Source: an uncultured Methylophaga sp. | Lineage (GTDB): Bacteria > Pseudomonadota > Gammaproteobacteria > Nitrosococcales > Methylophagaceae | Length of the DNA stretch: 64,000 nt | Direction: 5' to 3' | Assembly: GCF_947259025.1 (NCBI RefSeq) | Contig: NZ_CAMYKO010000001.1 | Coordinates: forward strand, 1-64,000 | Part shown: piece after piece, positions 1,255 through 24,526 of the stretch | Layout of the letters: each line of letters starts with the position of its first letter | How positions within the stretch are numbered: the first letter of the stretch is position 1 | Notes under the pieces: generated by a model | Told to the model about the DNA's origin: nothing | Database searches by the model: none | What the model saw: the letters and a program-made list of their open reading frames with translations, nothing else | Translations under genes and position numbers: made by a program

Positions 1255-2088
1255 TTAGTTCTGCACTCTAACTTTTCTTTCGTCCCATGTCTCGATCACA
1301 AATAATGCTATGGTGTGGGCTGAGTGAATGGCTAAGCGGGCATGTCTTGGTTTTAGGTTATAGACTTTCCTTCCTTGGCCATGTGCTGAGCTAGCGTGAG
1401 TTCTAAAAGCACCAATACCATCAACCACCGATATTATTCCTGAAAGAATTCTTTTCAAATCGTTATCTTCTAGAGAACCGGGCTCAAAGCCTAAATCAGA
1501 GCGCACAACTTTCCATACATTTTGCAAATCTTGCTTTTGAGGCATTTCCAAATGTTCATCTTCAATGTATGTCTTGAATATTGATTCAAGTATGTTGCAT
1601 GCGGCTGAAACAGCTTCTCTGGGCTGTGAATTTACGTTTGAAATAGCCCTATTAAACTCAGCATCAATGGTGGGGATATCACGTCCTTGTATGAGCTCTG
1701 CCAAGGAACGGCTGGGAGTGTGGCTGCCATCTGAAATGAGCCCACCGGGAATATAATTGAGATTGCAGCGAGACAGTATTGCTTTTATCTTTTTTCTGAA
1801 CTCTATTTTTCCATCCACGTTAGGTTCACCAAACCAAGCAGAATCTTGACTCTCTAATTCTGGCAACTCCATGTAACCCTCGATCAGGCGGCCAAGTATT
1901 TCTAATGGCCTATCGGTTTCTTTATTGACTCTCCTGAGCCAAGCTTGAACTTTAACGGGCTTTGAACCTTCCGGGGGCTCCCCCGGAGCTTCTGCATAAG
2001 AAAAAAGGTTGTCTAAGCTAGCATGTGTTTCGAAATTTGGTAAGTTTTCAGACAGTACAGCTATTACAGGGGCTGGTATTTTTTTCAT
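1255..2088 (-). CDS. Abortive-infection family protein with Abi_C domain
   Basis: 277 aa. The C-terminal 130 residues (from ESIFKTYIEDE) fit the Abi_C family: a helical domain with R-T-H-A-S-S-A-H-G-Q-G and a final ARLAIHSAHTIALFVIETW helix. The R-x6-H spacing resembles HEPN ribonuclease motifs, although a HEPN relationship is inference. The N-terminal half is variable and probably senses or binds a partner. Abi_C proteins are usually tied to phage exclusion by growth arrest. It lies between the octad-repeat gene (71 bp upstream) and the CoiA-like gene (97 bp downstream), all on the minus strand. Confidence 0.7.
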   Translation of the reverse strand: MKKIPAPVIAVLSENLPNFETHASLDNLFSYAEAPGEPPEGSKPVKVQAWLRRVNKETDRPLEILGRLIEGYMELPELESQDSAWFGEPNVDGKIEFRKKIKAILSRCNLNYIPGGLISDGSHTPSRSLAELIQGRDIPTIDAEFNRAISNVNSQPREAVSAACNILESIFKTYIEDEHLEMPQKQDLQNVWKVVRSDLGFEPGSLEDNDLKRILSGIISVVDGIGAFRTHASSAHGQGRKVYNLKPRHARLAIHSAHTIALFVIETWDERKVRVQN

Positions 2089-3643: not shown

Positions 3644-4402
3644 ATGAAAATTCAGCTTTACTCGGATTTGCACATAGAACAGATTGGCTTTTTCAGTCTC
3701 CCAGCATTAGACACAGATTTAATTATCCTGGCCGGTGATATTGATACTGGACTATATGGCTTGGAATGGGCGGAAGAGCTCAGAAGACTTCACAAGAAGC
3801 CCGTTATCTATGTTGCAGGTAATCATGAATATTACAAACATGAATATCATGCATTAACACAAGAAATGAGAGATTACGCTGCTCAGTACGACAAGCTGCA
3901 CTTTCTGGAGAAAGATGAAGTCATTATTGATGGGGTGCGTTTCTTAGGTACAACACTATGGACCAACTACTTTGATGAATACGGGCCATTCGAGCGTGAC
4001 AAAAATATCAAAATATTAGATGCAGCACTTATGGATCATAAAGTCATTAGGATCGATGAGCGCCGCTTCAGTGCTCAGGATGCTTATAAAGAGCATCTAA
4101 CTTCTCTATCATGGCTTAAAGAGAAGTTACGCGAGAGCTTTTCCGGCAAAACAGTGGTAGTTACGCATCACGCCCCATCATTTCTCTGCAATCACAAAGA
4201 TTTCGGCATGAATGAAATGAGCCCTGGCTTCGTTTCAAACCTTGAACATTTAATGAATGGGGTAGATTTATGGTGTTATGGGCATACTCATTCAAATCTA
4301 GATACTGAGGTTCAGGGCTGCAGGTTGGTGAGTAATCAGAAAGGATATAAACCTGAAAAAATTCCTGTCCCTTTCAAGTCGCAACTTATTATCTCTATCT
4401 GA
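3644..4402 (+). CDS. Calcineurin-like metallophosphoesterase
   Basis: 252 aa, complete. The dinuclear metal-site blocks of the MPP superfamily are in order: YSDLHIE (residues 6-12), LAGDID (about 29-34), VAGNHEYY (about 57-64), THHAPS (about 170) and GHTHSN (about 215). The family hydrolyses phosphoesters, including nucleic acid ends and cyclic nucleotides; the substrate cannot be read here. It has no signal peptide, so it is cytoplasmic. It is the third gene of the operon that starts at 2908. Confidence 0.85.
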   Translation: MKIQLYSDLHIEQIGFFSLPALDTDLIILAGDIDTGLYGLEWAEELRRLHKKPVIYVAGNHEYYKHEYHALTQEMRDYAAQYDKLHFLEKDEVIIDGVRFLGTTLWTNYFDEYGPFERDKNIKILDAALMDHKVIRIDERRFSAQDAYKEHLTSLSWLKEKLRESFSGKTVVVTHHAPSFLCNHKDFGMNEMSPGFVSNLEHLMNGVDLWCYGHTHSNLDTEVQGCRLVSNQKGYKPEKIPVPFKSQLIISI

Positions 4403-5392: not shown

Positions 5393-5443
5393 TAAGGGCT
5401 ACGGACGCGCTAACAGCATGCGCCGCAGCCTTCGGCGTTACCT
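5393..5443 (+). repeat. attC-like site 1 (degenerate)
   Basis: Starts with ACCTAAC (RYYYAAC consensus, complementary to the GTTAGGT core at 5074) and ends with GGCGTTACCT. The inner arms (GGCTACGGACGCG / CGCCGCAGCC) are only partly complementary. Called from its place between cassette-like ORFs as much as from sequence. Confidence 0.5.
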
Positions 5444-12088: not shown

Positions 12089-14713
12089 TTACTCCAGAGC
12101 AACATCTATATCCTCCAAGGCAGAAATGATTGCTTCAACAGTATGCCTATCGAACTCTGTACGATCATTTTCTTCATGGGTTCCTTTGTTGAGATATCGC
12201 CATTCGCGTGAATCACCACTGAATCCTAGCAAGGTATCAATTGGGGTAAAGACTGCTTCTTTGTTAGGTGCAGAGAATTCTTGTTTACCAATTTTGCTCC
12301 TCAATTGTTCTGTAAGATTTCTCAAATCTATTGGTGCTGATGGTGAACGTAGTTTCAGGCTCAGGTTGCCATCACCGTACTTAGTGACATATCTCCACAC
12401 TTTGACTTTTGCGAGCGACTCTAAAGCTTGGCGTGACTTAGTTAGAGCTTCTCTGATTTCGTTATGATTTATGTGTCCTCGAGCAGCAAGAATATAGTTC
12501 CGGGGAGCACAGTTAAAGTCTATCCGGATGTGGGGCTCTTCGAGACGAGGCAAGAAAGAGAATAATTTAACTAGTCTGGCTTCCTGCGCAGGTAATAGAG
12601 TCTGAATATCCTTGAAGAATTCCTCACCATGACAGGTCAATAGTATTTGTTTATGTGAGAAATAATGATCCTCGAAAAGCGTTCGTCGAATAGATTCCCT
12701 GTGATCATCGTCAATAGCATTTACTGGATCATCGAAAATTAAGACAGGAGCATTTTCCTTGAGATTTTTCGCCAGCAAAATTGCTAGGCCAAGACATCGT
12801 ATATGCCCTTCACTAAGTACATGAAGGGCGTCGTAATTCTGGTGAGGGTTATTGCAAAATGCAATTTGAAGTCTCTCGTTCTGCGTCAGTGGTAACGTAA
12901 CGTTTGCTAATTGCTCTGAGTTTGAATCATTCCGGTTGAAGGCGTTATAAAGAGTGACAACCCTTTCACCGAGGTCTGCCACTAACTGTGAAGGTAAATT
13001 ATTATTGTAATTGCTCAGCTTTCGGACGAATGAAGCATATGCACTAGCGATCGACTGGTTCCTAGATATCAAGGCCTTTTCTGCTTCAACATCCGCAATT
13101 AATTGTGCATTTTTATTCTGGAAATTATCTATCAGTTTTTGGGCTGATGAAATGGTCGTGTTTGCTGTCTGCCTTCGAGTTTGAAGCACTGTAATTTGAT
13201 GGCTGTATTCACGAAGTCTGTTCAGTTCATCTAGCTTGTGACTTTTCTGTGCGGTAGCTTGGTCAAGCTTTTTGTCATTATCCTCAAGATGCTTAACTTG
13301 GCCGGCTAAATGCTGCCATGGTGTGTAGCCATCAGCCATTCTGCAAAGAAGGGAGTTCCACCATTCGATGCCGGGTTGTCCATTACCTTCTATTTCATAT
13401 GGTTTTAAAGGATTGTTTTGCGGGAGGTATTTCAAGCACGTGTTAATGATTTGTGAGACTTGAAACAAGGACTGTCTTGTGCTCTGCTCAAGCCGCATTG
13501 TATCTTGCTGGGTAAGAGCCAGTTTCTGGAGCTTTTGTAGCTCTTGGCCTGCGTGCGTGTAGGGGTTTACGTTGGCCTCGCTTAGAGGTGTTTTGCATGC
13601 AGGACATTCGCTCGGGCTACTTTGCTCCAGTTGCAAAACCGTTTCATATAGTTGTTTAAATGAGACTTGAAGGCTGGCTGCGGCTAGCTCTCTCTGCTTT
13701 ATGGTCAGCTCTTGGATGGTCGTTGTAATTGTATTACCCAACGTTTCCAAGGATACACTGGCTAAATTGCTTCTAGTCATCGCTGGTTGCTGCAGCTCAT
13801 TTTCAAGAAGCTCAATTCTCCCAGGCGCTTCGTCACTTCCATTTAGTTCTGATACCATCAGATTGAAGCTAGTGCCTTCTCTGTATTGATGGGCTAGCCT
13901 CAATTCCTCAGCAGTAATTTTTTGGAGCTCATTGTTGCAGTCTTGAATTTGTTGCTGTGCACCATTTAGAGCCTGCCGCTTCTTTGCGAGGAGTATTGCG
14001 TTTCTCCCCTCCAGGTCTATGTAACGGCCGTCTATTTCTGCAGTGAAATTACGAACAAACTCTGCAAACGAGTCAAGACCAAACAAGGTGGAAATCAATT
14101 CCATCTGTTTTGCAGGCGCCTGAGCTGCAATTCGGGAGAAACTATCAATGCGATTCTTTTCTATAAAGCAAAAACGATAACCTGATTCATTGGGAGCAAC
14201 ATCTATTTCGTTACCTTCGCCATCAAACCCATAAATACTCGGCGGTGAAAACTGATTTACGTATGCGTTCTTCAGATATTCATTTTGGTCTCGAAATCGT
14301 TTATTTTCAGCTTCGACAACATAACCCAGCAAGCCATATTCCAGTGCTTCGCAGAAACTAGATTTACCAGAACCATTTGGACCGTATATGAGCACTAGGC
14401 GGCTTGCTAGATCAAAAGTTTCCTCTTTGGCAAAGCCACGAAAGGGGCCTACTGTTATACGGTTGAGCTGGGAAAATTTCGCCACGTGCTCTTCATCATA
14501 TTGGGGAACTGGCTGAATGATGGTGCTAATTGTTTCCCAATTACCTTGGGCTAGCTCAACAATTCGTTTGATTCGTTGGCCTTGATAAGTGCTCAGAGGT
14601 AATAGTTGATCTAAATTGGTTGCGACCAAATTGGCGATTTTACGGACAGCTTCAGGCTCTGATGGTGTGTCTAGCGTCTGCAAAAAGCGAAAGTACTCAG
14701 ACCTGATCATCAA
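12089..14713 (-). CDS. SMC/Rad50-like AAA ATPase with zinc-hook CPxC, defence-type
   Basis: 874 aa. An N-terminal helical region (1-80) precedes the ATPase: Walker A YGPNGSGKSS (about 109-118), a long coiled coil (about 240-600) with a CPAC half-hook near its tip, signature LSEGHIRCLGLAILLAK and Walker B VLIFDDPVNAIDDDH. The C-terminal 170 residues extend past the ATPase and contain WRYLNKGTHEE, an R-x6-H pattern like HEPN RNases. The design resembles stand-alone conflict ATPases such as RloC or the SMC-like parts of Lamassu- and Septu-type systems, but I cannot assign it to one. No partner gene lies beside it. Confidence 0.75.
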   Translation of the reverse strand: MMIRSEYFRFLQTLDTPSEPEAVRKIANLVATNLDQLLPLSTYQGQRIKRIVELAQGNWETISTIIQPVPQYDEEHVAKFSQLNRITVGPFRGFAKEETFDLASRLVLIYGPNGSGKSSFCEALEYGLLGYVVEAENKRFRDQNEYLKNAYVNQFSPPSIYGFDGEGNEIDVAPNESGYRFCFIEKNRIDSFSRIAAQAPAKQMELISTLFGLDSFAEFVRNFTAEIDGRYIDLEGRNAILLAKKRQALNGAQQQIQDCNNELQKITAEELRLAHQYREGTSFNLMVSELNGSDEAPGRIELLENELQQPAMTRSNLASVSLETLGNTITTTIQELTIKQRELAAASLQVSFKQLYETVLQLEQSSPSECPACKTPLSEANVNPYTHAGQELQKLQKLALTQQDTMRLEQSTRQSLFQVSQIINTCLKYLPQNNPLKPYEIEGNGQPGIEWWNSLLCRMADGYTPWQHLAGQVKHLEDNDKKLDQATAQKSHKLDELNRLREYSHQITVLQTRRQTANTTISSAQKLIDNFQNKNAQLIADVEAEKALISRNQSIASAYASFVRKLSNYNNNLPSQLVADLGERVVTLYNAFNRNDSNSEQLANVTLPLTQNERLQIAFCNNPHQNYDALHVLSEGHIRCLGLAILLAKNLKENAPVLIFDDPVNAIDDDHRESIRRTLFEDHYFSHKQILLTCHGEEFFKDIQTLLPAQEARLVKLFSFLPRLEEPHIRIDFNCAPRNYILAARGHINHNEIREALTKSRQALESLAKVKVWRYVTKYGDGNLSLKLRSPSAPIDLRNLTEQLRSKIGKQEFSAPNKEAVFTPIDTLLGFSGDSREWRYLNKGTHEENDRTEFDRHTVEAIISALEDIDVALE

Positions 14714-15724: not shown

Positions 15725-15738
15725 ATGCTTCATGCATT

Positions 15739-15770
15739 TAGTAGTAATACTACTACTATCAATACTACTA
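15739..15770. promoter_or_regulatory. Candidate KfrA-type operator
   Basis: A perfect inverted repeat TAGTAGT-AAT-ACTACTA (15739-15755) followed by a second copy of its half, AATACTACTA (15761-15770; first copy 15746-15755, 15-bp phase). It lies 15-46 bp before the preferred start of the KfrA-like gene, where KfrA proteins usually repress themselves. Confidence 0.6.
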
Positions 15771-15784
15771 ACAGGGATAAATGG

Positions 15785-16435
15785 ATGGACACGAGAAGAC
15801 GCAGAGAACCAGTCAGTAAAGATCAGGTATTTGATTTCATTGAGGCATATATGCAGGAACACAGTGTGATGCCCACCCAGCAGCTGATCATCGACAAGTT
15901 AGGCGGCTCACTTACAACGATAGGTAAGCATGTAAGAGAGTGGCAGCAAAGCGCCAAGAACCAAGTCAAAAGCATGATAGAAATGCCAGAACAAATCCGA
16001 GAGGCATCCCTAAAAGTGGGCGCCCAATGGTGGTCTATTGCTGAAAAGATGATGTCTGAGTCGATCCAAGTTGCCCAGGATTCGGCAGCCAAAGCTGTGG
16101 AACAGGCAAATCAAAATTATCACCTTTACCAAAATGAATGTGAGCAGCTCGAAAGCCTGGCTGAACGACTTCAGTCAGATTTAGATGAAGCTCTGACAGC
16201 ACTCAATCATAAAAACGTTGAGGTGTCTGAGATGAGAGAAAGGTTAATCAAGGCTGAACAGAAGAATGAGCATGATGCTGACACAATAAAGCGACTTAAT
16301 GAGGAGATTCTAAGAAGCAAAGAGCTTCAATCAGAGGCTGTCAAACAAGTAACTAGAATCTATGAAGAACGCCTCCTTGCTGCAGATGCACAGTTTGAGA
16401 AGCTGACCTCTAAACAACAACTGTCCAAGTTATGA
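15785..16435 (+). CDS. KfrA-like DNA-binding coiled-coil protein
   Basis: 216 aa from ATG 15785 (MDTRRRREPV), preferred over the track start at 15725 because AGGGA lies 7 nt upstream and the extension runs through the operator-like repeat. The N-terminal KfrA-type helix-turn-helix (VSKDQVFDFIEAYMQEH...LGGSLTTIGKHVREW, about 10-60) is followed by long alpha-helical coiled coil to the end. KfrA proteins are plasmid-type autorepressors that may form filaments; island relatives probably regulate or organise the element. It overlaps the HAD gene by 4 bp. Confidence 0.75.
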   Translation: MDTRRRREPVSKDQVFDFIEAYMQEHSVMPTQQLIIDKLGGSLTTIGKHVREWQQSAKNQVKSMIEMPEQIREASLKVGAQWWSIAEKMMSESIQVAQDSAAKAVEQANQNYHLYQNECEQLESLAERLQSDLDEALTALNHKNVEVSEMRERLIKAEQKNEHDADTIKRLNEEILRSKELQSEAVKQVTRIYEERLLAADAQFEKLTSKQQLSKL

Positions 16436-16884
16436 GTAACTTAATTCTCGCTCTTGACCTTGAGGGCGTACTCATTACCAACGCCATAAGTCAGTTTCCT
16501 CGCCCTGGATTGAGGCAGTTTTTAACGCAGTGTGAGGAAGTGTTTGGTCATGAGAATATCTGTATTTTTACAAAAGTACCTGAGAGACGGTTCAGGGTAA
16601 TAGCATCCACGCTGGTTAAGGAGAATAATGCACCCAGGTGGTTTGAAAACATCCGTTACATAGACTGGGTAGGAGAGCACAAAGATTTACGCTTTGTTCA
16701 TGACGATATTGAAAAAGTCATTATTGTTGATGATTACCCGCCATACATAAAGCAAACGCAAAAACACCGATTGATTCAGACACAAGAATACAAACAGCCA
16801 TATACCCACGCAATGCCAGATATTACCGATAAGGAGCTTGAATTTCTCGCAGAGAAACTAAAAGAACTGGTTTTGATGCAGTAA
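16432..16884 (+). CDS. HAD-superfamily protein (small phosphatase type)
   Basis: 150 aa. Motif I appears as LALDLEGVLI (first Asp kept, the usual second Asp is Glu), motif II likely IFTKVPER and motif IV VIIVDDYPPY, in the order of small NIF/SCP-like HAD phosphatases. There is no cap domain. The DxE change may weaken phosphatase activity. Translationally coupled to the KfrA-like gene through an ATGA overlap. Confidence 0.6.
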   Translation: MSNLILALDLEGVLITNAISQFPRPGLRQFLTQCEEVFGHENICIFTKVPERRFRVIASTLVKENNAPRWFENIRYIDWVGEHKDLRFVHDDIEKVIIVDDYPPYIKQTQKHRLIQTQEYKQPYTHAMPDITDKELEFLAEKLKELVLMQ

Positions 16885-16993: not shown

Positions 16994-17590
16994 TTAATTC
17001 TTCTCCATCCACTTGAAATACTCAGGAAGAGTACTTTGGTCAAACAAAATTGAATGGTCATAAGTATCAGTAACTACTCTTAATTGCTTATCAATGTCGG
17101 TCCCTAGCCTTTCTAAAAGCATATTTATTATTCGACAAAACCGATCTACTGAGTCATTAATCGGGACTTTTCTGGTTGAACTATTTTGGCCTTCATTTTC
17201 AAGCAAAGCGATGTTAGAGAGGCTCTTTTCAAGCAACCTATTCAGGTGCTCATTTTCCTTTCGAAGCTCACGAATCTCAAGCTGTGCTGATAGAAGATTG
17301 TTTTGGGCTCCTTTATTTTTTTGAGTAACGACATATCCACTATCTGACATGAACTGTTCGATAAGACGCCCATACACCTTACTTCTCAAGATTGTAGTAT
17401 TAGAACAGGGCTTACCCTCAACTTCGGAAATTTTTTCGGCAAGCAGCTTACTGATCGCTGTTCGGTTATCTGGCTTGATTTTTGCGTTTAACAATTGATT
17501 TAACATTTTCGTTATAACTGCAGCGCGGGCTCGAGTTTGCTCATTCTGCTTTGCATGCATTGCTTCAGTTTTTCTGCGTAATGTGCTCAC
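16994..17590 (-). CDS. gmtX: Gamma-mobile-trio protein GmtX
   Basis: 198 aa from a GTG start that shares GTGA with the gmtZ stop; a GGGGGAGG ribosome site lies 7 nt upstream, so this start is better than the track start at 17614. The N-terminus is basic and helical (STLRRKTEAMHAKQNEQTRA), the middle has a possible helix-turn-helix, and residues 110-145 form a coiled coil (LRKENEHLNRLLEK). The size and place as third gene behind two recombinases match GmtX; Tn554 TnpC plays a similar part. Role in mobilisation is known for the system, but its mechanism is not. Confidence 0.7.
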   Translation of the reverse strand: MSTLRRKTEAMHAKQNEQTRARAAVITKMLNQLLNAKIKPDNRTAISKLLAEKISEVEGKPCSNTTILRSKVYGRLIEQFMSDSGYVVTQKNKGAQNNLLSAQLEIRELRKENEHLNRLLEKSLSNIALLENEGQNSSTRKVPINDSVDRFCRIINMLLERLGTDIDKQLRVVTDTYDHSILFDQSTLPEYFKWMEKN

Positions 17591-20500
17591 TTGAGAGCCT
17601 CCCCCCATAACCAACTATTGAAATTGTTAGATAGTCGCTGCAAATGTTTGGGATGTGAATCATCTAGTAACCTTTTGACATCCTCACTGGAGATTTTGTG
17701 CATGCCCGCAACTTTCTGAAGAAGTGCTATTGAAATTTCTAGAGGGTTAATATCAGGAACCTCATAGTCATCAGCTTCAATCTGTCTGAGAATCTTTCGA
17801 CTTAATTTTTGAGCGGCACGCTTGAGATAGCCGCTTTGTAAAGTTGGACTAGACTGAACCTCCATAAGCCTGGCGTACAATTCTTCGCCATTAGAGAGGT
17901 TACTGATACTTTTGAGTGTCCGTTTTACCTCATCAAGACCATCATCCAGAACAATAAAACCTTGCTCATCCTGGGATGCGATTCTTATAAATTCATACCT
18001 CGAATGCCAACTGGCAGCCTGCTCACACTCATGGACACGCTGCTTGATAAGCACTGAGCGTTGACTGTTGCTAATTTTCAAGTCTGCGATTTGGCTATTA
18101 AGCTCCTGAATATTATCAGCATGGAACCTTATTTGAGCTGCAATGGCAACTAGGTCACTTGGGGTTGAGACAGCAATTGGACACAAGCCACAATCTTTCT
18201 TGCCAAGTTGATCCAATATAACCTTGGGGCACTCATTACCGTAGATACAAATGTGCGTAGCATTGACTGCGATGTCATTAGGATTGACTTGCTCTGGCAG
18301 TTCTTCATGATTTAATTTTTTTACAGAGAGACGAAAGCCACCGAGCCCCTCCAACCCTCGTTCCATGAATACTTTTCGTACATGGTCTTCATTTTTTAAT
18401 AAGCTTTGAACGCTGGCGACTGTTGGCATTTCTGAGGATATTTGCCCCTTGATCTCCATAGCTCTCTCATATCGCTCTGGCGTTGCTTCCATGTAATACT
18501 CGACTGTAGCTTTAGTTTGCCCTGTCATTATCCCACCAACAAATTCAGCTCCAAGAATGAGTCCAAGATGAGTATCAAGCGTTTTTCTGAGTGAGTGAGG
18601 CGTGATCAACGTTCGAGGAGCTACCGGTGTGAAATAGGCACTTCTCTCTCCAAGAATGTGAAGAGCGTAATCATCAAAGCCAGTATCAAACAACATGGCC
18701 TTTGTTTCTGGTGTCCTTGTAGCGGTTTGTTTGTGCTTGATTGGTGCAAGGAATACGTGAGATCCCACTTGTGAGACTTTATTAGGACCCAGTTGGTGCT
18801 CAAAATCATAGAGCAATTGAGTCAGTAAGCCTGAGGCGACATTGTCATAGTTGTTATTACTATGCCCAACACCAAGAAAAGGAACCAACTCACCCCATTT
18901 TGAGTTTTCAGAGCCTTTGTACTGAATGGCTTTTTTTGGCGAGTTTGCCAATTCAGCTCTCAGGCCCTCAAACCTCTTAAGCAGGTTATATGTTCGTCGT
19001 TTAACAACTGATTTAAATACCCCCTCTTTTACTTTATCAGTCGATACGACTATATCTGCACACTCTCTTTTATTATCAATTTGATCGTTATCCCAAATAG
19101 AGTCCTCTAACCACATAGTGTTGGATAAACGCAGTCCAGATGACGCCATTATGGTCAGTGCTAATGCATATTGCGGTGCTAGGACTAATTGCCCATCTAA
19201 TGTTTTCGTTCTAGGAAGATACAGTGGTAATGTTATTCCCAGTTCTAATTCATAATCTAGGGCCTTTATCGTCCCGGATAACTCCACCCCAATCGGACCT
19301 TGGTGGGGAATAGTACATCTTTCATCGATCATCGACAGAAGCTTTTCAGAAAAGGAATTGAGGTATTCTGAAAATAGAAGCCAATAATCAATTTCGAATA
19401 TCGCCTTACTGCTTTTACCCCTATAAGATGGAGCCTTAATAGACCTTGCTACGGTTTCGTCTATAGGATTATGCTTTATTTCGAATCCTTTTATGCCAAC
19501 GTACTTAACCAAGCAATAATCAAAGTACTTTCTGACCCTATGCATTTTTGCTTGTAATGTATGCTCATTAGCGCTTGAGTTTATTATTTTAAAAAATCTC
19601 ATAAACGAGATTGGATAAACACCAAACTTCCCATAGAGGCTCTGGTTAACAATTTCACTCGTTGATATAAAGATGGCCGAGAAAAAGAGGCTTGGACAAC
19701 TTGGAAATGAGTATGGAAGATCTTTGTGTGAATCAAAAAACCAACTTAGGTAAGAGAACAGATAAATATTAAGATCTCTCAATGCTGAGCGAGCATTTTT
19801 ACGGGTGCCTTCCTCTCGTAATGACTCGATATATTCTAGCTCGCTCATCACCCAAGGGTTTTCAGCCATTGTCTCAGCTAGCCGGTGAGGTCTATATCTT
19901 GATAACTCAACAGTGTTGATCGACCACTCATCCTCTTCGTAAGAAATGCTCTCGGTTCGCTTTTTTGTGACAAGGTAAGTGGATTTTTCTAAGCCAGACG
20001 TTCCAAAGAGCTCAGGCATTCGAATATGTTCAAAATTAGCTTTATCTTCAATTCTGTGGTCTATCTCATCATGACAAACATCAAGATCACTTACTGAACT
20101 AATCCCCGGACTTGCATACCCTACAATTAGGCTGAAATCTATTTTTGATCCTAACTCATTGAGTACAGGAACGAGCCTCCCCCACGGCAGAGCAGCTTCG
20201 TAGGGAACTAAGCGCCTATAATCAATAAAAGATGAGGTTTTCAGCTCCCCAAATGAAGTAGCATTTGTGCGCAATGCAACTTTTCGCCAACAATTGACGA
20301 TATTTCCCAGGTTTCGATAATTCTCGGAGGATAAATATTTATCAAATGACGACCTCCACTCATCAGGTATCGCGTATGCATATTCAGAGGAGGTTTTTGG
20401 GCTTCTGAAAAGAATAAAGAACTTCTGAAATTGGGGGAAAACGGACCAAAGTTTCGAACTCATAAGTTCGTGACTTACAAAATCAGTCAGAGGGAGGTCA

Positions 20501-20904
20501 TTAGTCTTTAGAACAAGTATCCCCTCATTCACTAAGAAGTGAAGTAGAAGGTCAATACACTGATTAATGAGTGAGTGGATGCGCTTAATAGGCTTGGATT
20601 TCAATGATGTGTAGTTCACTTGACGAGAGATGTTTCTTTTTAGGTAATCACTGGTCAACTCATCTTTTTTTCTACATTCAGGGTTACTTGTTTTCCTAAA
20701 ACTTAAGAGATTGATGAGTCTTCTTGACTTACCAGGCTCTGTTTCAGTTGATATATGTTGGAGTTCATTTTTGACATGAATGGCTATTGAAGAGAACGAT
20801 GGAACTGAGATATCGACACTTTCCGCGTTACTCAAGAACGAAATCGAAGCCTGTATTACAGTGTCAGAATCATGGATTTCAAAGTCTCTAATTTCAGAGT
20901 TCAT
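17587..20904 (-). CDS. gmtZ: Gamma-mobile-trio integrase-like protein GmtZ
   Basis: 1105 aa. The second half holds a tyrosine-recombinase catalytic domain: Arg in SSGLRLSNTMW, HSLRKT and a candidate nucleophile in TVEYYMEATPE. A cysteine group (CIYGNECPK...KKDCGLCPI, about residues 890-920) follows, then helical coiled coil. The first 500 residues are unrecognised and probably bind DNA or the partners. Starts with a 4-bp ATGA overlap with gmtY and ends overlapping gmtX, so the three are translated together. Layout and sizes fit the Gamma-Mobile-Trio family, needed together with GmtY and GmtX for island movement. Confidence 0.75.
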   Translation of the reverse strand: MNSEIRDFEIHDSDTVIQASISFLSNAESVDISVPSFSSIAIHVKNELQHISTETEPGKSRRLINLLSFRKTSNPECRKKDELTSDYLKRNISRQVNYTSLKSKPIKRIHSLINQCIDLLLHFLVNEGILVLKTNDLPLTDFVSHELMSSKLWSVFPQFQKFFILFRSPKTSSEYAYAIPDEWRSSFDKYLSSENYRNLGNIVNCWRKVALRTNATSFGELKTSSFIDYRRLVPYEAALPWGRLVPVLNELGSKIDFSLIVGYASPGISSVSDLDVCHDEIDHRIEDKANFEHIRMPELFGTSGLEKSTYLVTKKRTESISYEEDEWSINTVELSRYRPHRLAETMAENPWVMSELEYIESLREEGTRKNARSALRDLNIYLFSYLSWFFDSHKDLPYSFPSCPSLFFSAIFISTSEIVNQSLYGKFGVYPISFMRFFKIINSSANEHTLQAKMHRVRKYFDYCLVKYVGIKGFEIKHNPIDETVARSIKAPSYRGKSSKAIFEIDYWLLFSEYLNSFSEKLLSMIDERCTIPHQGPIGVELSGTIKALDYELELGITLPLYLPRTKTLDGQLVLAPQYALALTIMASSGLRLSNTMWLEDSIWDNDQIDNKRECADIVVSTDKVKEGVFKSVVKRRTYNLLKRFEGLRAELANSPKKAIQYKGSENSKWGELVPFLGVGHSNNNYDNVASGLLTQLLYDFEHQLGPNKVSQVGSHVFLAPIKHKQTATRTPETKAMLFDTGFDDYALHILGERSAYFTPVAPRTLITPHSLRKTLDTHLGLILGAEFVGGIMTGQTKATVEYYMEATPERYERAMEIKGQISSEMPTVASVQSLLKNEDHVRKVFMERGLEGLGGFRLSVKKLNHEELPEQVNPNDIAVNATHICIYGNECPKVILDQLGKKDCGLCPIAVSTPSDLVAIAAQIRFHADNIQELNSQIADLKISNSQRSVLIKQRVHECEQAASWHSRYEFIRIASQDEQGFIVLDDGLDEVKRTLKSISNLSNGEELYARLMEVQSSPTLQSGYLKRAAQKLSRKILRQIEADDYEVPDINPLEISIALLQKVAGMHKISSEDVKRLLDDSHPKHLQRLSNNFNSWLWGEALK

Positions 20905-22334
20905 CCACTAAATTCCTGTCCCACTGACGAAATCTTGGTCAATGCAGTATGTATTTGCTCCAGTAGCAAATCATTACTGACAGCATCATCAATACTCAAA
21001 CCTTCGCCAGTTACGAGCTTATTAAACCTTTCAAGCTCCCCTCGCACCTTTTCTTTGTCATTTTTTGCGTAGTGTGAGGTTGTCTTAATTGATGCATGCC
21101 CCATCATGATTTGGACAACCTCAAGAGGTAGTCCTGCACCATAGCTAGTGGGCAAGAAATTAACTACAAAAACCCCGTACATGTGTCTCAAAGAATGAAC
21201 CGTGTACCTAGTTACACCAGCTCTTTCAGCAGCTTTTTTAAAAGCTTTATTGTATGTATTCGCGTTGCTTATGAGATAGCATGGCTCTCCTAAAACATTC
21301 TTTTCTAATTTTACAAAAAGGACTGAGTGCGAAGTCACCGGACGTTCATGGTCCAAATAATGCCTTAGTGACTTAAAGAAAATAGAACGAAATGGCTCGA
21401 TAAAAAATGTTTCTTTCGTTTTCCTACCTTTGTGAGCCAAGCGAGAATTATGACCTTTCTTTAGCGGAAACTTATCAATTCTTGTGTTTGGATCAATCAC
21501 ATACACTTTTTCATCAATTGGCAGGACATCTTCCATTAAGATTGTGTAAGCCTCACTTATGCGAATTCCAGTACCCATGAGCAGAGCCCATAAAGCTTGA
21601 TCTCTCGCTAACCTTGCATTGTTAAGAGTGTCTATAGAGCGCTCAATTGGAAACGCTTTTATTTCATCAACCTCATTCTCCCCCCCAGCTTTCTTGAACT
21701 TAAAGAAGGTAGAACTGATCAGTGATGGCCCCCCAGAAACAACTCCGGCCAAGAATGAATTGTGTAACAAAGCAAGGCGCTCATTTGACGAAATATTTCT
21801 CTTGGCCAGGAGATCCTTTGCAAAGATCTCTTTGGAATTAGTAACCTCGACCAACCCTAGCTGTGAAAGCTCAAGTTGAGTGCGTTGATAGCTCGCGCTT
21901 GATTTAATGAACTCATTCAGGGTAGATAACATTCTATTCTTGGAGCTTGAGCTTACAGGCGTCCAACCAAGACGATGAGAGACTTCTCTTACCAACTTGT
22001 TTGAAGACCTATCAGCCACCATAAGAAAATCGGGAAACACACTCACAACTCCGAATAATGGAGTAGTGTTTTCCACTAGCATGTCTTCAACAACCTCAGA
22101 AGAAGTGGTCAAGTAATTGAAAAACACGCTCAGGTCATATGCATAGGCATCAATTGAGTTGGGAGCACTACCTAAACTCTTTCTGTGACTCAAAAAATCA
22201 GTGAAGAAGGGAATGGTTTCCAGGGTTTTTAGGTGAATGAGCCTGTAGGCATTTCCACCAAAAATAGGATCTGGATATTTAACCATTCTCAGAGCTGGTG
22301 TTTTAAAGCCCATTAACGCGCGCATCCACAACAA
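20901..22334 (-). CDS. gmtY: Gamma-mobile-trio tyrosine recombinase GmtY
   Basis: 477 aa. A SAM-like core-binding region (about 40-110, SIDAYAYDLSVFFNYL) precedes a full catalytic set: Arg in GTGIRISEAY, Lys near KGRKTKE, HSLRHMYG, MGHASIKTTSHYA with the nucleophile Tyr. It should cut and rejoin DNA at the island ends. The start is TTG with AAAGG 7 nt upstream; ATG codons at residues 4 and 8 are alternatives. It is the first gene of the trio and begins 110 bp from the island tRNA-Arg, the usual distance for an integrase next to its attachment site. Confidence 0.8.
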   Translation of the reverse strand: MLWMRALMGFKTPALRMVKYPDPIFGGNAYRLIHLKTLETIPFFTDFLSHRKSLGSAPNSIDAYAYDLSVFFNYLTTSSEVVEDMLVENTTPLFGVVSVFPDFLMVADRSSNKLVREVSHRLGWTPVSSSSKNRMLSTLNEFIKSSASYQRTQLELSQLGLVEVTNSKEIFAKDLLAKRNISSNERLALLHNSFLAGVVSGGPSLISSTFFKFKKAGGENEVDEIKAFPIERSIDTLNNARLARDQALWALLMGTGIRISEAYTILMEDVLPIDEKVYVIDPNTRIDKFPLKKGHNSRLAHKGRKTKETFFIEPFRSIFFKSLRHYLDHERPVTSHSVLFVKLEKNVLGEPCYLISNANTYNKAFKKAAERAGVTRYTVHSLRHMYGVFVVNFLPTSYGAGLPLEVVQIMMGHASIKTTSHYAKNDKEKVRGELERFNKLVTGEGLSIDDAVSNDLLLEQIHTALTKISSVGQEFSG

Positions 22335-22360
22335 GGTCTACCTTTCACAGTAAACAGAGC

Positions 22361-22550
22361 TGCACCTTTCTGCAAGCGTTAAGCACAATTTGAAATAAAA
22401 TTAGTTAATTTCTGTTATGGAAATTACCTTTAAGTGCAGTTAAATGGCGGGGTGAGCGGAACTCGAATCCGCAACCTTGAGCTTAGGAGGCCCATGCTCT
22501 ATCCAATTGAGCTACCACCCCTTGAATTCATACTATACGCATGCACTTTA
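22361..22550. repeat. TGCAC(C/T)TT repeats around the island end
   Basis: TGCACCTTT at 22361, its inverted relative ACCTTTAAGTGCA at 22426-22438, and TGCACTTTA at 22542, with ACCTTT again at 22340. These short direct and inverted copies on both sides of the island tRNA could be arm-type binding sites for the recombinases. Their shortness keeps the call weak. Confidence 0.35.
22445..22521 (-). tRNA. tRNA-Arg(CCU), complete, island-borne
   Basis: A 77-nt cloverleaf with encoded CCA: acceptor GGGGTGG / TCACCCC, D-arm GCTC...GAGC, anticodon stem TGGGC / GCTCA with loop CTCCTAA (anticodon CCT), T-arm GCGGA-TTCGAGT-TCCGC. It has its own promoter straddling the island border (TAGACC, 17 bp, TATAGT, 11 bp before the gene). 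Its sequence differs strongly from the truncated host tRNA-Arg beside it, so it is not a simple reconstitution. Confidence 0.93.
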
Positions 22551-22572
22551 TAATGGTCTACTTAAGAACCTT

Positions 22573-22621
22573 GACCTTCCCCTTAGGAGGGGGATGCTCT
22601 ATCCAGCTGAGCTACGGGGAC
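22573..22621 (-). pseudogene. Truncated host tRNA-Arg(CCU), 5' 49 nt only
   Basis: GTCCCCGTAGCTCAGCTGGA continues through D-arm, anticodon stem TCCCC / GGGGA with loop CTCCTAA, and variable AGGTC, then homology ends: no T-arm (GTTCRA) or 3' acceptor follows. The intact promoter TATAAT remains 11 nt upstream. This marks the right border of the island at about 22,572. The missing 3' part, which should end with CGGGGAC plus discriminator and CCA, is expected at the other island end. Confidence 0.85.
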
Positions 22622-22852: not shown

Positions 22853-24526
22853 ATGACAGATAAGCGAAAACATTCATCCCCAGTCGTCGACGGAACCGGT
22901 AAAGCACCGGCCAGAGCGATGTTAAGGGCGGTTGGTTTCAATGATGCTGATTTTCAAAAGCCTCAAATCGGCATCGCCTCGACCTGGAGCATGGTCACGC
23001 CCTGCAATATGCATATCAAGCAACTGGCTGATTTTGCCTGTGAGGGTGCTGACAAAGCAGGCGCTAAAGGGGTGATTTTTAACACCATCACCATTTCTGA
23101 CGGCATTGCTAATGGCACCATTGGCATGAAATATTCTTTGGTGTCGCGTGAGGTGATTGCCGACTCAATTGAGACGGTTGCCGGCTGTGAGGGCTTCGAT
23201 GGACTGGTCGCCATCGGTGGCTGCGATAAAAACATGCCTGGCTGCCTTATTGGCCTGGCCCGCTTAAACCGCCCATCGGTCTTTGTTTATGGTGGCACCA
23301 TCCAGCCTGGTGCTAACCACACTGATATCGTTTCTGTATTTGAGGCCGTGGGAAAACATGCACGCGGTGATATCTCAGCGGCGGAGTTAAAGCAGATTGA
23401 AGAAACGGCGATTCCCGGCGCCGGCTCCTGCGGTGGCATGTACACAGCTAATACCATGGCTTCAGCGATTGAAGCGCTGGGCATGAGTCTGCCCAACAGC
23501 TCTGCGCAGGAAGCAGTCTCTCCTTCAAAGGCTGAGGATTGCCGCCGGGCCGGCGCTGCCGTGATGGCATTGCTGGAACAGGACATCAAACCCGCCGATA
23601 TCATGACCCGGCAGGCCTTTGAGAATGCCATTACCACGTTAATCGCACTGGGTGGCTCGACCAATGCGGTTTTGCATCTATTAGGTATGGCCCATGCCGT
23701 GGATGTGGATCTCAGCCTGGATGATTTTGCCCGTATTGGGCGTCGTGTCCCGGTATTGGCGGACTTACGTCCCAGCGGCAAATACATGATGTCGGAACTC
23801 ATTGCCATCGGCGGTATTCAGCCCTTGATGAAAAGCCTGCTAGACCGGGGACTGCTTCATGGTGATTGTCTGACAGTGACCGGCAAAACCCTGGCAGAGA
23901 ATCTGGCTGGTGTTGCGCCCTACCCAGCTGATCAAAACATTATTCGCCCCTTTGACCAGCCCATTAAAAAAGACAGCCATTTAGTCATTCTCAAGGGAAA
24001 TCTGGCACCAGAGGGCGCCGTCGCGAAAATTAGCGGTAAAGAAGGCTTACGGTTTACCGGTAAAGCCCGGGTATTTCACTCTGAAGAAGAGGCGCAACGG
24101 GATATTCTCAATGGCACCGTCGTAAAAGGGGATGTCATCGTTATCCGCTATGAAGGTCCCAAAGGCGGGCCGGGCATGCGGGAAATGCTCAGCCCCACTT
24201 CTGCCGTTATTGGTAAAGGCCTGGGTAACGATGTGGCCCTGATCACCGACGGCCGTTTCTCTGGCGGCAGCCACGGCTTTGTGGTTGGGCACATCACCCC
24301 CGAAGCTTTTGATGGCGGTCCGATTGCACTGGTTGAGAATGGTGATGAAATAACCATAGACGCCGAAAACGCTGTCATGCAGCTTCATCTGAGCGATACA
24401 GAAATACAACAAAGACGCGAAGCCTGGCAGCCTGTTCCACCGCGCTACACACGCGGTGTGCTGGCGAAATACGCCAAAACGGTCTCCTCTGCCTCTGAAG
24501 GTGCCGTCACCGATAAAAATCTGTGA
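22853..24526 (+). CDS. ilvD: Dihydroxy-acid dehydratase IlvD
   Basis: 557 aa, the shorter IlvD/Edd class. It converts 2,3-dihydroxy-3-methylbutanoate and its homologue into the 2-oxo acids before valine, leucine and isoleucine, in the cytoplasm. Fe-S cluster cysteines are visible in [16 protein letters not shown] and [13 protein letters not shown]; the last block is the family signature. C-terminal [12 protein letters not shown] and [10 protein letters not shown] are also typical. First core gene beside the island; no attenuator is evident in its 230-bp leader. Confidence 0.95.

Follow-up and report, generated by a model that had tools for sequence, protein, structure and literature searches.

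The first 64,000 nucleotides of contig NZ_CAMYKO010000001.1 from an uncultured Methylophaga sp. (contig 1; this whole stretch is hereafter the window) carry a trio of adjoining genes, Y, Z and X, beside a broken tRNA-Arg(CCT) gene. Our analysis indicates that this trio is very likely the transposition module of a mobile tRNA-targeting island and that it represents a sister family of the Gamma-Mobile-Trio (GMT), the GmtY-GmtZ-GmtX module of GMT islands (Mahata et al. 2024, as cited in PMC12039261). We place the probability of this interpretation at roughly 0.85, leaving aside the possible self-protection of the element, which is weighed separately below. The family was not named in the sources that we searched. 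With the ends and the target of this GMT sister lineage defined exactly, such islands can be mapped to the base.

The trio and its relatives

The trio is composed of the following genes:
20901..22334, minus strand: Y, tyrosine recombinase of 477 aa (Pfam Phage_integrase, E = 1.8e-18; homologues in 12 relatives)
17587..20904, minus strand: Z, large tyrosine-recombinase-like protein of 1105 aa with a C-terminal C-x5-C...C-x2-C motif (family comparison)
16994..17614, minus strand: X, small coiled-coil-type accessory protein of 206 aa (homologue in genome G664, E = 5e-7)

All three open reading frames (ORFs) are full length and in frame, and neighboring genes overlap by a few bases. An earlier reading made from the letters of the window only (the sequence-only reading) had described three overlapping genes beside a tRNA junction; the ORFs, as well as the intact and the broken tRNA-Arg(CCT), are confirmed here. 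Searches of Pfam and NCBIfam returned no significant match for Z and no family match for X, which presents neither a recombinase match nor a DUF6262 match. The alignments of the Z family nevertheless present an R...HxxR...Y core, in which HxxR and the tyrosine are conserved, in addition to the C-x5-C...C-x2-C motif. A single-sequence AlphaFold2 model of Z was uninformative (pLDDT 33).

We searched for relatives of Z with tblastn in plasmids and phages, in 369 genomes of the class, in two genome-contig scans and in viral contigs, and no true relative was detected; two matches of these searches and one class-level match (L030) were false. A sample of the phylum yielded two strong relatives with whole trios, sharing 28-29% identity with Z over ~740 residues (E = 2e-72 and 4e-62). 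Using a profile built from the window and these two sequences, trio members were identified in 5/196 and 7/197 genomes of the two host families (the two seeds are counted). The family therefore comprises 13 members, the window included, and the 12 others all belong to gammaproteobacterial genomes. Protein sizes are similar across the 13 members (Y 447-510 aa, Z 1028-1280 aa and X 202-231 aa); for G1051, no X ORF was called under the ORF filter used. A chance association of the three genes is excluded, because the whole trio is conserved in the same order in relatives found elsewhere. In most relatives, X is followed by a VPA1267-type gene, by a gene for a RecD2-like helicase or by both (the VPA1267 gene of G664 scores 137 bits for a cut-off of 90), and neither gene was found in the window. 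Small ORFs that look resolvase-like from their sequences were also observed inside several trio elements (L094 12764-13330; L097 5296-5859; L100 3058-3639), and a resolvase-like ORF adjoins GmtX in one GMT locus (L053).

Insertion point and ends of the element

The elements are predominantly sited in tRNA genes (10 of the 13, the window included). Their targets are tRNA-Arg(TCT) in four cases, a tRNA with a CAT anticodon in three, which we read as tRNA-Ile2, tRNA-Arg(CCT) in two (the window and G664) and tRNA-Pro(GGG) in one. In ten members, a tRNA 5' fragment ending in GTTC and followed by TTA lies upstream of Y. Right ends were sought with the predicted 3' halves of the host tRNAs and were found in six members, each time preceded by a tip that roughly mirrors the left one and by a 6-bp footprint, which reads NNGTTC in five of the six and GGGATC in G978. 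Short and imperfect inverted repeats form the tips, as in TTATATTAGG. The six elements delimited in this manner measure 12.9, 15.2, 16.3, 20.1, 23.8 and 24.3 kb and, when their host flanks are joined, the expected type of tRNA is restored in full in 6/6 cases (ARAGORN). These junction sequences place the insertion point of the relatives within the tRNA T-loop, between C56 and R57 (GTTC|RA). The three remaining elements (G865, G1088 and G1073) are sited outside tRNA genes: those of G1088 and G1073 (L101 and L102) share one insertion place next to an nrdD-like gene, and the third (L096) directly follows an mscS-like gene.

We propose that Y and Z, both tyrosine-recombinase-like, would carry out strand exchange over a 6-bp spacer with X as a helper, a form of exchange discussed for strand-biased circularizing integrative elements (SEs) and Tn554 (PMC10214605). 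In the relatives, sequence comparison shows that the host tRNA gene is split and that the element supplies a complete replacement tRNA, which may keep the host alive.

The junction of the window consists of these features:
22445..22521, minus strand: element-borne replacement tRNA-Arg(CCT) (ARAGORN; Rfam 62.5 bits)
22532..22560, minus strand: promoter-like site TAGACC-17-TATAGT, close upstream of the replacement tRNA (consensus scan, 9/12, a weak match)
22553..22565, minus strand: left tip of the element, TTAAGTAGACCAT (junction comparison with relatives)
22566..22621, minus strand: 5' fragment of the host tRNA-Arg(CCT) that stops at the crossover with ...GGTTC (95% identity to positions 1-57 of the genus consensus tRNA)
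22853..24526, plus strand: host flank adjoining the tRNA, an ORF that we take, from general knowledge of its sequence, to be an ilvD-like gene (dihydroxy-acid dehydratase)

On the minus strand, starting from the ilvD-like gene, one successively finds the tRNA 5' fragment, TTAAGTAGACC..., a full tRNA-Arg(CCT) of different sequence, and Y. The DNA match to genus-mates spans the tRNA fragment and the start of the ilvD-like gene. The matching loci of nine genus-mates contain an unbroken tRNA-Arg(CCT), and they mostly read GTTCGACTCC at the point where the window reads GTTC|TTAAG. The GTAGACC core of the left tip is repeated at 22335-22341, just before Y. At the level of sequence comparison, the window matches its relatives in the left junction, the fragment of the host tRNA, the replacement tRNA and the trio. 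The sequence-only reading had proposed that this junction may mark where the module inserts, and the left junction indeed falls in the tRNA T-loop.

Several observations weigh against this interpretation of the window. Neither its right end nor the host tRNA's 3' half (predicted as GACTCCTGCCGGGGAC...) was found in the window, at any of the contig ends or in the assembly. The left tRNA fragment is slightly decayed (one deletion and one substitution). In addition, contig 1 starts inside the island, hence the insertion is seen from one side only. The window copy could accordingly be a dead remnant whose trio was stranded after the loss of the right end and whose cargo is now chromosomal, a scenario that we take seriously while leaning slightly against it. 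The missing 3' half and the decayed fragment are in line with such a loss, as is the fact that the only tRNA-Arg(CCT) seen is the replacement of the element. Three full-length, in-frame genes are less expected of a remnant, and the missing end may lie past the contig break, since a cadR repeat at the start of contig 1 probably broke the assembly inside the island. Positions 1-155 of the window are ~98-100% identical to cadR regions found on many plasmids.

The tRNA-Arg(CCT) loci of genus-mates also present arrays of truncated 5' copies of the gene with its promoter, 1-3 kb apart (L022, L029, L023, L021 and L026). In L022, these copies are located at 5436, 7723, 10574, 12259, 13895 and 15102. 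Ordinary genes lie between the copies, such as groES-groEL, an oxidoreductase gene and a gene for a GGDEF protein. The truncated copies break at tRNA positions ~25-40, unlike the T-loop site of the trio, which indicates that another process generates them.

Replacement tRNAs and the question of self-protection

A complete replacement gene of the same tRNA kind was found in all ten tRNA-sited elements. It is located toward the left end in nine of them, usually between the left tip and Y, and near the right end in G832. In G1112 (L099 11470-19894; L111), ~6.7 kb of other genes separate the intron-bearing replacement tRNA from Y. Seven of the ten replacements contain a group I intron of ~230-245 nt after the anticodon, in the anticodon loop (confirmed by Rfam with 61-99 bits relative to a gathering score of 50), and all seven possess the canonical GTTCRA T-loop. 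The three intron-less replacements present other T-arms: GCGGA/TTCGAGT in the window, GTGGG/ATCGTGC in G664 and two extra T-stem bases in the 79-nt tRNA of G832. In the window, the T-arm (GCGGA-TTCGAGT-TCCGC) carries the non-canonical A53-T61 in place of G53-C61. Across the ten elements, introns and altered T-arms are thus cleanly split (P = 0.008; Fisher test). For comparison, the T-arm is canonical (GTTCRANYC) in 40 of the 42 genuine tRNAs of the fetched loci, the exceptions being the replacements of the window and of G664; two ARAGORN calls, a junction hybrid and one with a spurious 650-nt intron, were set aside from this count. Introns that pass the gathering score were detected in 12/197 genomes of the family to which G728 belongs, and they are strongly enriched in genomes with tRNA-sited elements (5/5 versus 7/192 of the others; P = 3e-7).

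These patterns could reflect a self-protection of the replacement tRNA, by an intron or by an altered T-arm, a proposition that we regard as evenly balanced. An intron in the anticodon loop (7/10) or a changed T-arm (3/10, the window included) would spoil the replacement as a target, such that neither the same element nor a sibling would reinsert there. The T-loop is nearly universal, and yet each replacement matches the target of its own element; target recognition must therefore extend beyond the T-loop, plausibly into the anticodon arm. Protection from integration was proposed earlier for archaeal tRNA introns (PMC3293823). A search of the open-access literature revealed no description of replacement tRNAs of bacterial islands that contain group I introns.

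Other points speak against self-protection. The intron lies ~20 bp from the crossover and would block the site only if recognition reaches so far. Calling the T-stem of G832 altered is a matter of judgement, given the canonical loop of this tRNA. The T-arms were compared once the data had been seen, and the ten elements are not independent. Finally, introns are not exclusive to the elements: in five genomes, an intron-bearing tRNA-Arg(TCT) was found at its native site beside folD with neither an element nor a 5' fragment (L144, L146, L149, L150 and L151), which led us to reject the notion that introns are confined to elements. These solo copies either carry introns of the host side or are scars left behind by elements since lost. 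It is also conceivable, at somewhat less than even odds, that introns and odd T-arms protect nothing, the elements having simply taken up an adjacent tRNA gene of a kind in which introns are frequent passengers. The solo copies beside folD are in keeping with this alternative, and an intron in the tRNA-Ile of Azoarcus is known independently. Two patterns are harder to reconcile with it: introns are strongly enriched in the genomes that hold tRNA-sited elements, and each replacement has either an intron or an altered T-arm, never both. Should self-protection be correct, bacterial group I introns in tRNA genes would gain a concrete role, and the long-standing notion that introns shield tRNA genes from integration could be tested directly.

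Kinship with known systems and cargo of the window

The sequence-only reading had assigned the trio to GmtY-GmtZ-GmtX. When compared with the NCBIfam models, Y scores 56 bits with GmtY (NF040693; cut-off 340), which is lower than its scores with XerA (70) and XerC (60). Z did not match the GmtZ model (NF047926; cut-off 600 bits) and X did not match the GmtX model. All three cut-offs were thus failed and membership of GMT by model was rejected. We then compared the trio with genuine GMT trios from one genome and twelve plasmids: they present the same Y-Z-X order, similar sizes and overlapping or abutting genes. The profiles of the 13-member family match GmtY at 99.5% (E = 2e-23) and GmtZ at 99.2% (E = 7e-20). 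The match of X to GmtX is weak (59%; E = 9e-5), which counts against the kinship that we propose. As single sequences, the proteins of the window yielded a clear profile match for Y only, and Z matched GmtZ at 29%, a value reached by 0/60 shuffles. In phylogenetic trees, the family and GMT form separate clades (support of 100/100 for Y, and of 99 for Z in a quick tree). Relatives also share a VPA1267 gene with GMT, and defense-type cargo may be common to both. The family here targets the tRNA T-loop and carries a replacement tRNA, often with an intron.

One might argue that the window carries an ordinary GMT island and that the NCBI models are merely too narrow. Gene order, sizes and the 99% profile alignments would fit, as would a relative with VPA1267 and a RecD2-like helicase after X, since some GMT loci possess VPA1267 and an AAA ATPase. 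We consider this improbable given the three failed cut-offs, the separate clades and the three scanned GMT loci, in which no group I intron and no tRNA were detected. The evidence partly supports the earlier assignment: the order, the profile kinship and the position of Y-Z-X at the end of a cargo island stand, and the family label does not, the trio being better described as a sister of GMT. The suggestion that a methylotroph would extend the host range of GMT does not hold either, since GMT trios already occur in betaproteobacteria.

A Tn554-type TnpABC transposon is very improbable: this type shares with the family two tyrosine recombinases, a small protein and a 6-bp footprint of the Tn554/SE kind, here at the right ends (PMC10214605), and Y by itself is indeed closer to TnpA (E = 2e-10 over 377 aa) than to GmtY (E = 5e-5), but Z is over twice as large as the compared TnpB, X lacks DUF6262, and the family profiles match TnpB at 2% and TnpC at 0.3% (one sequence of each), relative to 99.2% for Z with GmtZ. 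Membership of Tn554 was therefore rejected for the module as a whole. RIT elements, which the sequence-only reading had also named as an alternative, would require three tyrosine recombinases in a row, and the third protein here is the 206-aa X.

Other systems present partial similarities. In SEs (PMC10214605), as in the present family, the left end holds a multi-gene tyrosine recombinase operon, the tips are inverted and imperfect, and there is a 6-bp spacer, seen here at the right ends of six relatives; SEs have four core genes (intA-tfp-intB-srap), whereas the family has three. In GInts (ginABCD; PMC5385486), the cargo island likewise has a recombinase operon at one of its ends and is short and AT-rich at the other. 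In contrast, they rely on four essential genes, including three integrases, rather than on two recombinases and one small protein, and they occupy an ABC-transporter gene site in pseudomonads. Element-delivered tRNA introns of archaea (PMC3293823) share the idea of an intron shielding a tRNA site from insertion, but they associate an archaeal intron with a single integrase, unlike the group I ribozymes and the trio found here in bacteria. Finally, classical tRNA islands (Islander; PMC4383910) also split a tRNA target whose function is restored by island sequence. In those islands, this sequence mends the disrupted gene, whereas the elements described here bring an entire extra tRNA gene with a promoter-like site.

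The sequence-only reading had further described GMT islands as rich in anti-phage and toxin genes. The cargo of the window appears defense-like, as judged from its Lamassu-like and AbiJ-like matches, and the following genes were annotated in the window:
1255..2088, minus strand: Abi_C / AbiJ-like protein, cargo (Pfam 1.6e-18; PADLOC AbiJ 7.5e-14)
3644..4402, plus strand: calcineurin-like phosphoesterase, PDC-S10-like in PADLOC, cargo (Pfam, PADLOC)
12089..14713, minus strand: SMC-like ATPase whose best PADLOC match is LmuB (Lamassu-type; 3.8e-24)
15725..16435, plus strand: KfrA_N-like DNA-binding coiled-coil protein, cargo or accessory (Pfam KfrA_N 7.8e-9)
16432..16884, plus strand: NIF/HAD-type phosphatase, cargo (Pfam NIF 3.8e-11)

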